From positions 33,932 to 97,931 of the forward strand of contig PKYQ01000031.1 of NCBI GenBank assembly GCA_003133685.1: a stretch of 64,000 bases of DNA, written 5' to 3'. Within the stretch, counting starts at the first letter, position 1. Every line of letters starts with the position of its first letter. The translations under genes and the position numbers were made by a program. The stretch comes from Acidimicrobiaceae bacterium (lineage in GTDB: Bacteria; Actinomycetota; Acidimicrobiia; Acidimicrobiales; RAAP-2). Below, in pieces: positions 2,808 to 64,000 of this stretch. The notes below the pieces were generated by a model. The model had not been told where the DNA came from, made no database searches, and worked only from the letters and a program-made list of their open reading frames with translations.

Positions 2808-3953
2808 TCACGGGGAGGTCTCATCTTCGCCCCGGGCCTTACGGTGGTACGGGCGCACTGACCGCCCCTGCTCTTCGGCCTCGACCCGACGAATCGTTCG
2901 CCGCCTCTCGGCTTTGTTGGTGTTGCGTCGCGTCGTGACCCTGATCGCGTGAGCCTCGTCGACGACCACCTGCTCGCTTCGTTGTTGCCTCAGTTGTTGG
3001 TTGGTAACGGGTGCTCGAGTTTCCATCAGGCTGCAGACGAGGCGCCAGAAGATGAGGCCGCGGTTGCGAGAGTTTCGGCGGTTGAAGCGAAAGACGAATT
3101 CGTCGAGGTAGGCGTCCAAGTGCTGGCCCCTCACCGCCCCTTGGTGAGTTCCGAGCAACCAGCGTTTCAAGAGAGAAGCCACCCGGTGAACGTGGGGGTG
3201 AATGAGGTGTGCTCTGGACTCGGTCTTTGACAGTGTCGTGGTTTTAGCCGTGTAGTGCAGTCCGCGTGCCCTCAGCTCACTGAGGGCGGGCCTATAGGAA
3301 GCCCAGTCGTCACAGAGCAACACCGAGCCGGGTTCGACGTTTCGCTCCAGGAAGTCGGCTATGGCCAGGGCCGATGCGTCAGGCAGGCGAGCGAGTCGAA
3401 TGCGCCCCATGGCCTTTGGCGATACCACCTCGCAGGCCACTGCCACGGGAGACCTCTTGCCTCGTGAGCGGCCACCAGCTCCAAGTTCAACACCGCCAAC
3501 GTAGGTCTCGTCGAACTCAACGTCGCCACTGAGCTTCTTTCGTTCGTCTTGATTCATGGCGGCTCTCATCTTTTGAAGGAGGAGCCATGCTGTGTCGTAG
3601 TTGACGCCGGTGATTCGTTGGACACTAAGAGCCGAGACCCCGATCTTGGTCTGCACGAGATGCCAGGCCACGACCAACCAGGTAGCCAAGGGCACCTTGG
3701 TCCGCTCGAGCAGTGTTCCCGTGGTCAGGGTGAACCAGCGCCGGCAATCTCTGCACCACCAGCGCGACTCATTCGAGCGCGCGACTTCGACGCCGCAGCG
3801 AGGGCAGGCGAACCCGTGCCGGAAACGCACGTCAGTGAGATATTTGGCGGCGCTCGCCTCGGACCTGAACCACCGGTTGAACTCAGCCAGGTCTCTCGGG
3901 TAGTGACGTCCCGCCACGGGCACACCGTCGTCAACTTCCCAGGTCAGCACCAC
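2808..3953 (-). CDS. IS1595-family (ISXO2-like) transposase
   Basis: A 381-residue DDE-type transposase. The N-terminal third has a zinc-ribbon: CPRCG near residue 50 and CRDC near residue 70, followed by RRWF, typical of the IS1595 DNA-binding region. The catalytic domain has DEFDETYVGG-like sequence (here EFDETYVGG), CDDWASY and the HPHVHR...N-rich segment ending RFNRR, matching the ISXO2 family DDE/N fold. The C-terminus carries an extra basic tail of about 60 residues beyond the usual domain end. The ATG at 3953 lies 22 bases inside the terminal inverted repeat, leaving room for a promoter in the repeat. No frameshift or internal stop is present. Confidence 0.93.
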   Translation of the reverse strand: MVLTWEVDDGVPVAGRHYPRDLAEFNRWFRSEASAAKYLTDVRFRHGFACPRCGVEVARSNESRWWCRDCRRWFTLTTGTLLERTKVPLATWLVVAWHLVQTKIGVSALSVQRITGVNYDTAWLLLQKMRAAMNQDERKKLSGDVEFDETYVGGVELGAGGRSRGKRSPVAVACEVVSPKAMGRIRLARLPDASALAIADFLERNVEPGSVLLCDDWASYRPALSELRARGLHYTAKTTTLSKTESRAHLIHPHVHRVASLLKRWLLGTHQGAVRGQHLDAYLDEFVFRFNRRNSRNRGLIFWRLVCSLMETRAPVTNQQLRQQRSEQVVVDEAHAIRVTTRRNTNKAERRRTIRRVEAEEQGRSVRPYHRKARGEDETSP

Positions 3954-62688: not shown

Positions 62689-64000
62689 ATGCACGCCTAC
62701 TTCGCCGAAGAGTTCACCGACGCCGAAGTCGCCATCCTGCGTCGCTATTTCACCAACCTCGAAGGCCCGGTCTTCGCGCTGGTCAATCTGCCCGAAGTCG
62801 TGAAGGGAGCGTTGTTCGCACGCTATTCGAGGTCCTCCAAGAGCCTGCGTCGACTGTTCTTGGATGAATTCGTCGGCGACCTCGATCTGTCGGGCGACGC
62901 CTCGATCGACGCGACCGTCGGGCTCGAGCGCGCCGACGAGCTCTACCAGAGGATCTTCGTCGAATACGGCGACGACTCGGTGGCCCAGTTGGGTGGCGTA
63001 CACCTGGCGTGTGAACAGGCGAGCAACATACTCACCAAAGTCCTCGAGTGGGGGCGCCTCATGAGCTACCTCGAACAGTCCACGCGCTATCTCGGCTACG
63101 ACCGGCGCTTTACCAATGGCCACTACCGCTTTTATCGTGACCACGAACTGCTCGAGTCGCGCTTCGGCGCACGCTACGTCGGTGAGATGGATCGCATGTT
63201 CGATACCTACGCCGAACTGTTGCCGATTCTGACGGAGTGGTTGACAAAGAAGTTCCCGAAGACGCCGGAGGATACTGACTTCGTCTACCGCCAGGCCATT
63301 CGCGCGAAGGCGCTCGACGCGACGCGGGGCCTGTTACCGGCGAGCGCCCTCTCCAATCTCGGTATCTACGCCTCCGGTCAGGCCTACGAATCTCTACTTC
63401 TACACATGCGCGCGCACCCGCTTCTCGAGGTCCGTCTCTACGGACAGCTCATGTTCGATGAACTCGTGAAAGTGATTCCCTCGTTTTTGAAACGAGTCAA
63501 CGTGCCCGAGCGCGGCGTCGCGTGGTCGACCTACATGTCCGAGACCAAGAGCGCCACGCGAGATCTCGTCGCGTCGATGTGGGAATCGGTCGTCGAGGAC
63601 GAACCGGCTGAACAGGTGCGACTCGTCGCATTCGATCCCGACGGTGAGACGAGAGTGCTCGAAGCGATCGTCTTTGGCAACTCGACGATCTCGCACGACG
63701 AGTCGGAAAAACGCGTGGCGTCGATGTCGGCGCGTGAGCGCGAATCGTTGATGGCCGCGTACGTCGGGGAACGCAAGAATCGCCGTCACCGTCCGGGACG
63801 GGCCTTTGAGCGCACGGACTACCGCTTTGAACTCGTGACCGATTACGGCGCGTTCCGTGACCTCCAACGCCATCGACTCCTCACGATCGAATGGCAGCCC
63901 CTCACGGCCGACCTGGGCTACGACGTTCCCGACGTCATCGAAGAGGCTGGCCTGGCTGATCGCTACGAGGAGTCGCTCCGTCACTCCGCCGAGCTCTACT
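62689..64000 (+). CDS. Two-domain ThyX-like protein (partial, runs off the window)
   Basis: An open frame of 437 codons with no stop before the window ends. The first half resembles flavin-dependent thymidylate synthase ThyX: VEYGDDSVAQ near residue 92, WGRLMSYLEQSTRY at 121-134 aligned with the RHRxxSxNxxSxRY motif (Ser126, Ser131, Arg133 and Tyr134 kept, first Arg/His lost), GLLPAS near 214 and LLEVR near 245. The second half has FRDLQRHRLLTIEWQPL at 389-405, keeping RHR but losing the serines. The motif is split between two tandem domains. ThyX converts dUMP to dTMP; whether this protein does is uncertain. Confidence 0.8.
   Translation, partial: MHAYFAEEFTDAEVAILRRYFTNLEGPVFALVNLPEVVKGALFARYSRSSKSLRRLFLDEFVGDLDLSGDASIDATVGLERADELYQRIFVEYGDDSVAQLGGVHLACEQASNILTKVLEWGRLMSYLEQSTRYLGYDRRFTNGHYRFYRDHELLESRFGARYVGEMDRMFDTYAELLPILTEWLTKKFPKTPEDTDFVYRQAIRAKALDATRGLLPASALSNLGIYASGQAYESLLLHMRAHPLLEVRLYGQLMFDELVKVIPSFLKRVNVPERGVAWSTYMSETKSATRDLVASMWESVVEDEPAEQVRLVAFDPDGETRVLEAIVFGNSTISHDESEKRVASMSARERESLMAAYVGERKNRRHRPGRAFERTDYRFELVTDYGAFRDLQRHRLLTIEWQPLTADLGYDVPDVIEEAGLADRYEESLRHSAELY

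Follow-up and report, generated by a model that had tools for sequence, protein, structure and literature searches.

A gene that runs off the end of the window (the 64,000-nucleotide stretch of an Acidimicrobiaceae contig analyzed here) encodes a tandem ThyX protein in which the residues of the ThyX active site are divided between two fused domains. Comparison with related sequences indicates that this tandem is a real, widely conserved ThyX variant, very probably the dTMP synthase of the cell, with one composite type of active site.

The open reading frame (62689..63999) is still open at the end of the window. Reading the contig beyond it gave a protein of 535 amino acids, with the gene ending, stop codon included, 296 bases past the window (G000:C19:98227). 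The start lies 24 bases downstream of a gene for a helicase with DEAD and DSHCT domains. Further upstream are genes for TatC, TatA, signal peptidase I, and Pup ligase, and the next gene after the tandem thyX encodes a DUF4193 protein. In the flanks of 80 relatives, which differ in length, the helicase was detected in 67 cases and the DUF4193 protein in 39. The protein encoded immediately 3′ of the tandem thyX at L004:3319-3789 is acidic and of low complexity, with DUF4193 at its C-terminus. The closest named relatives of the window protein are from uncultured Acidimicrobiaceae or Acidimicrobiales. The features of the gene are listed in Table 1, in which residue numbers of canonical ThyX are those of T. 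maritima (Tm; PDB chain number minus 12), as they are throughout the text.

Table 1. Features of the tandem thyX gene and its product, in positions of the window
Feature	Position	Strand	Basis or remark
Tandem thyX gene	62689..64000	+	437 of 535 codons within the window; extended by the contig
N-terminal Thy1 domain, residues ~20-290	62746..63558	+	Pfam Thy1; N-half model of a relative
C-terminal Thy1 domain, residues ~305-515	63601..64000, remainder beyond the window	+	Pfam Thy1; full-length model of a relative
Ser47	62827..62829	+	Invariant in 51/51 tandems; possibly equivalent to Tm Ser30 in the folate loop (matched by eye)
Ser97 = Tm T55 / Mtb S71, FAD contact from another subunit	62977..62979	+	Ser in 71/71
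Trp121-Gly122-Arg123, degenerate RHR counterpart	63049..63057	+	Alignments
Glu129-Gln-Ser131-Thr-Arg133-Tyr134 = Tm E86, S88, R90, Y91, active-site loop/lid	63073..63090	+	71/71
Arg213 = Tm R147, dUMP phosphate arginine	63325..63327	+	71/71
Arg394-His395-Arg396 = Tm R78-H79-R80, FAD/dUMP	63868..63876	+	71/71
Trp402 to Ala407, place of E86-S88-R90-Y91, lost	63892..63909	+	Alignments

Membership in the Thy1 superfamily was evident for both halves. The Pfam profile Thy1 (PF02511) matched the whole protein in two stretches with 117.7 bits, against a curated cut-off of 24.8, and each half alone scored above the cut-off (E = 1.9e-11 for the N half and 2.1e-20 for the C half). When 28 N halves and 28 C halves were aligned profile to profile with 27 single-domain ThyX sequences (26 fetched ones and the T. 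maritima stretch), the probability was 99.2% for the N halves and 99.2% for the C halves. The whole protein missed the cut-off of the NCBIfam ThyX equivalog TIGR02170 (46.2 versus 87.9 bits), and we therefore filed it in the Thy1 superfamily and not as a canonical ThyX. It had no match to PF00303 (ThyA) at E-values up to 1. RHR and S-x-R[YF] occurred within one domain in all 26 fetched single-domain loci and in neither domain of the window protein. A PDB sequence search with the whole tandem protein returned no ThyX match; the same search with single-domain ThyX returned 23 distinct sequences, all named ThyX, TM0449, or "thymidylate synthase."

The ThyX-like character that the initial annotation had given to both halves was borne out by structure prediction for a 92%-identical relative, in which a ThyX fold is predicted for each half. 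In the full-length model of that relative (mean pLDDT 75), residues 306-516 of the C half superposed on T. maritima ThyX (TM0449) with Z 15.3 and rmsd 2.6 over 192 aligned residues. Residues 94-134 of the N half were below pLDDT 50 in this model, so that region was set aside. Modeled alone, with viral rows added to the alignment, the N half of the relative (pLDDT 83.4) matched M. tuberculosis ThyX with Z 12.3 and rmsd 4.4 over 197 aligned residues.

The sequence of the window protein agrees with the initial description of a motif split between domains, the N-terminal one keeping SxxxxSxRY with WG in place of the RH of RHR, and the C-terminal one keeping RHR with the serines and RY replaced. 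At the RHR position, the N half reads E120-W121-G122-R123, and it retains S126xxxxS131xR133Y134; the C half retains R394-H395-R396 and has W-Q-P-L-T-A at residues 402-407. An arginine aligned with ThyX R147 occurs in the N half only (R213), and the C-half counterpart of R174 is R476, which lies beyond the window. All nine main ThyX catalytic residues are found somewhere in the chain, in either half, and the place of H53 is occupied by Asp.

This division of residues is conserved among the relatives. In a set of 71 aligned tandems (66 of Actinomycetota type, including Parabacteroides L161 and Euzebya L162, three from phages, and two from Bacillota plasmids), every protein had R78, H79, R80, and R174 in the C half and E86, S88, R90, Y91, and R147 in the N half. 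Another set, of 51 tandems (32 Actinomycetota-type and 19 viral), kept all nine residues in 49 cases, the exceptions being His for E86 in L163 and Gln for H79 in L195. RHR at the N-half positions was absent from every protein of both sets (71 and 51), and so was the combination of Ser, Arg, and Tyr at the C-half positions. Among the 80 genome_contigs loci, one (L091) had no open protein of 480 amino acids and was left out. The 79 usable proteins, 69 of which entered alignment A2 and 32 alignment A4, all carried E.S.RY in their N-terminal half and RHR in their C-terminal half, with no RHR anywhere in residues 61-160. Of 63 viral open reading frames, many of them near-copies, the N motif was recognized in 62 with a loose pattern, and RH(N)R was present in 61, L224 being a fragment; 19 were retained once near-copies had been removed.

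Only 12 columns were invariant among the 51 tandems, and eight of these are split ThyX residues (S97, S131, R133, Y134, R213, R394, R396, and R476). Identity to the reference is 17-27% for the 19 viral tandems. The nine residues form four sequence blocks (RHR; E86-Y91; R147; and R174), and a random placement of these blocks into halves would agree with the roles in 2 of 16 cases; we therefore put the weight on conservation across distant lineages and on the fact that R147 and R174 follow the roles. Judged on these alignments, the split pattern is not due to chance and is not peculiar to the window genome. A plain loss of R174 from the N half was considered and rejected. In the profile alignment R174 corresponds to position 239 (63403-63405), which is His in the window protein and Arg in 63 of 66 Actinomycetota-type tandems, so the R174 block is not cleanly split in that type.

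The premise that canonical ThyX sites are built from several subunits is in line with the M. tuberculosis enzyme, in which three subunits contribute to each site: subunit A gives RHR and R199, subunit B gives S71 and R190, and subunit C gives S105, R107, and Y108 (PMC6514825). In PolB, R86 and R193 come from one monomer and E94′, S96′, R98′, and R166′ from its neighbor (PMC5003785). The roles of H53, R78, S88, and Y91, and also of S30, are given in PMC11940539. We matched the M. tuberculosis and PolB residues by motif and spacing to Tm R78-R80, R174, T55, and R165 and, likewise, to Tm S88, R90, Y91, E86, and R147 (PolB R166′ = R147). In the single-domain proteins, R78, H79, R80, S88, R90, R147, R165, R174, H53, and E58 were kept in 26 of 26, and variation was seen at E86 (Glu in 9, Gln in 17) and Y91 (Tyr in 23, Phe in 3). 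Since published structures assign these residue sets to neighboring subunits, each tandem chain would hold the parts of one composite site. Conservation at 17-27% identity and the published subunit assignments together lend strong support, at the level of sequence, to the proposal that the two halves complement each other to give a single type of working site.

We consider it likely that the tandem is the thymidylate synthase of the cell, of ThyX type, with halves that share one type of active site after an old tandem duplication, and we infer the following arrangement. A single old tandem duplication would have been followed by division of the active site between the halves. The C half would hold FAD and the uracil edge of dUMP via R394-H395-R396 and R476, and the N half would bring the lid loop and the phosphate residues E129, S131, R133, Y134, and R213 to the C-half site. 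Two chains would probably assemble into a pseudo-tetramer that has two working sites, each formed by the RHR of a C half and the lid of an N half, and two vestigial sites. The methylene group would take the same route as in ThyX, from CH2-THF to flavin N5 to dUMP, with release of THF; with THF as the product, DHFR would not be needed for recycling.

The residues expected from the third subunit bear on the size of this assembly. In the N half of the 11 Bacillota-type viral forms, T55 is present as Ser in all 11, E58 and R165 in 11 each, and H53 in nine, so that only the RHR role is left to the C half. The eight other viral forms keep H53 in eight cases, R165 in six, and E58 in none, and overall, 17 of the 19 viral forms have R165 in the N half. 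The Bacillota-type viral pattern points to sites composed of one C half and two N halves, which would require at least two chains. The "single-chain heterodimer" of the initial annotation is thus probably too small a unit, since a ThyX site draws on three subunits and most phage-type tandems, with third-subunit residues also in the N half, would need two N halves and hence two chains. In the Actinomycetota type, the R165 position holds Gln in the N half, and the arginine is found in the C half instead (66/66); a clean role division fails there because this third-subunit residue sits in the C half. The idea of third-subunit residues confined to a single half was accordingly dropped; it nearly holds for the Bacillota-type viral forms and does not hold for the Actinomycetota type. 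The folate/flavin histidine Tm H53, present in 26 of 26 single-domain proteins, corresponds to Asp95 in 66 of 66 Actinomycetota-type tandems.

Several "lost" positions are themselves conserved in the Actinomycetota type: G122, R123, R371, and R467 in 66 of 66 proteins and W402 in 62 of 66. These residues are rare or absent in viral forms. Because they do not drift, the vestigial sites of the Actinomycetota type may have been reused, for example to bind an allosteric nucleotide or a second cofactor. We regard such reuse as rather unlikely; if it were true, this ThyX would combine two catalytic sites with two regulatory ones.

Distribution of the tandem was analyzed in the class to which the window genome belongs. 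A search with the tandem protein gave matches in 184 of 247 class genomes. Thy1 was found in 108 of 119 class genomes, as the tandem type in 85 and as a single domain in 23; a few of the 85 have fragmented genes, and all 85 also match the tandem protein in the search just described. The 23 single-domain genomes, of ~0.7-1.1 Mb, all belong to one genus (family f27, genus g52), where open frames of 218-239 amino acids stand in place of the tandem. Genes of ThyA type were present in 11 of the 119 genomes: seven without any Thy1 and four with the tandem (G114; G009, in two pieces; and G000 and G063, with divergent genes). ThyA thus occurred in 7 of 11 genomes without Thy1 versus 4 of 85 tandem-type genomes (tandem versus ThyA, Fisher p = 9e-7 without the divergent pair and 8e-6 with it, kinship being ignored), and a direct search of the seven ThyA genomes without Thy1 found no tandem. 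Family f32 contains both tandem and ThyA genomes. DHFR_1 was detected in 10 of 119 genomes, that is, in 6 of the 11 without Thy1 and in 4 of the 85 with the tandem. Neither Thy1 nor ThyA was found in four genomes, three from the small-genome genus and one other that is 87% complete. The tandem was the only type of dTMP synthase found in 81 of 119 class genomes. By these gene counts, the tandem alternates with ThyA plus DHFR in the class, as would be expected of a working dTMP synthase.

On the question, raised in the initial annotation, of another thyX or thyA in the genome, the answer is divided: the tandem is the sole Thy1 found in the window genome (assembly 95.26% complete), but a divergent ThyA-like gene is present. 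The product of the latter (L005:3764-4441, minus strand; G000:C2:92781-93161) has 225 amino acids and is nearest to the methanogen-type model TIGR03283, at 78 bits, under the cut-off of that model. Such a match occurs in 2 of 119 class genomes (G000 and G063), both of the genus of the window genome. No DHFR_1 match was found in the window genome. In G009, the two ThyA pieces (G009:C39:1968-2603 and 3602-3886) lie ~1 kb apart with DHFR downstream, and the tandem is also present; the pieces represent either an insertion or a decaying gene.

The initial annotation had also allowed for an inactive or moonlighting ThyX paralogue. In that case both halves would be non-catalytic and the divergent ThyA-like protein would make dTMP, which would fit with the lack of a full motif in either half by itself and with the presence of the ThyA-like gene in the window genome. 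There is precedent in the atypical C. glutamicum ThyX, "not required for thymidylate biosynthesis" according to the title of 3ge9. However, of the 12 columns that never vary among 51 diverse tandems, eight hold catalytic or ligand residues of ThyX. In addition, only two of the 119 class genomes have the divergent ThyA-like gene, DHFR_1 was not matched in the window genome, and the tandem, the sole Thy1 found there, alternates with ThyA plus DHFR. An inactive paralogue is therefore not favored, and we consider it quite improbable.

A very improbable reading is that of a ThyX-like enzyme acting mainly on another substrate, for instance UMP or a modified pyrimidine. PolB, a ThyX homologue, can prefer UMP (PMC5003785), and phage copies might conceivably serve modified bases, but no ThyA-type match of any kind was obtained in 81 of the 85 tandem-type class genomes, so this explanation would leave dTMP synthesis unaccounted for in most of the class, barring thymidine salvage. 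The conserved substitutes of the Actinomycetota type (G122, R123, R371, and R467, each 66/66, and W402, 62/66) could be taken to mean that each half has its own non-canonical active site, with replacements for the missing residues; their rarity or absence in viral forms, given that nearly all tandems share the split catalytic residues, makes this scarcely credible.

Compared with canonical ThyX (T. maritima TM0449 and the M. tuberculosis enzyme), the tandem shares the predicted fold in both halves and the nine main catalytic or ligand residues, each in one or the other half. It differs in its two fused domains, in the placement of RHR and S-x-RY in separate domains, in the replacement of H53 by Asp (Actinomycetota type), and in its score below the NCBIfam equivalog cut-off. 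PolB UMP methylase and the atypical C. glutamicum ThyX are ThyX relatives with a changed function or need, and they differ from the tandem in being single-domain by PDB chain length.

An uncharacterized "duplicated" ThyX was reported in 2009 from the sequenced Chloroflexi except Dehalococcoides and from a few other species (PMC3224940). Likened by its description only, it is probably of the same kind as the tandem, and nothing in the relevant passages speaks of catalytic residues being shared out between halves. PHROG 36506 (phage "thymidylate synthase," 491 amino acids), for which function is given as a name only, is a catalogued tandem, and a protein of cyanophage MaMV-DH01 matches it end to end; the split in this protein is the same as in the window protein, although the two are only ~27% identical over 78% of the latter. 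The ThyX of Chlamydia trachomatis, of ~529 amino acids, is possibly a tandem as well. Isolated C. trachomatis ThyX has been assayed (PMC3498832). Our search of titles, abstract openings, and text passages found no report of residues divided between ThyX halves; duplication of ThyX has been known since 2009, and within that material the division of its catalytic residues was not found in print.

Because canonical ThyX is a homotetramer with four equal sites, the roles of its subunits cannot be altered singly. Natural tandems would place the FAD-holding and dUMP-lid roles in separate halves of one gene and may permit site-by-site tests of a debated mechanism. They also appear to exemplify old, stable sharing of an active site following duplication.

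In a tree of 83 rows, the N halves lay on one side of a branch (support 99/100) and the C halves on one side of another (95/98). Both groups contained the same three sub-groups, of which the Actinomycetota C-half group was weakly supported (85/41). The tree was drawn midpoint-rooted, and long branches meet in it, so that support is possibly inflated. A single old duplication is the simplest reading, since the N halves cluster together and the C halves do likewise.

When the Actinomycetota alignment was used as the seed, a scan of viral_contigs detected no relative; phage forms used as seeds gave 42 and 24 loci, on contigs that were partly shared. Related tandems were found in 14 phage records. 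A tandem ThyX with 47% identity to the window protein (L161:1486-3105) is carried on a 277-kb record labeled as a Parabacteroides distasonis plasmid, which reflects either transfer from Actinomycetota or a labeling problem. A dCMP deaminase gene lies beside the tandem thyX of phage Tunturi_5 (L157:330-1292) and a dCTP deaminase gene near that of a Euzebya plasmid (L162:225-794); both are genes of dUMP supply.
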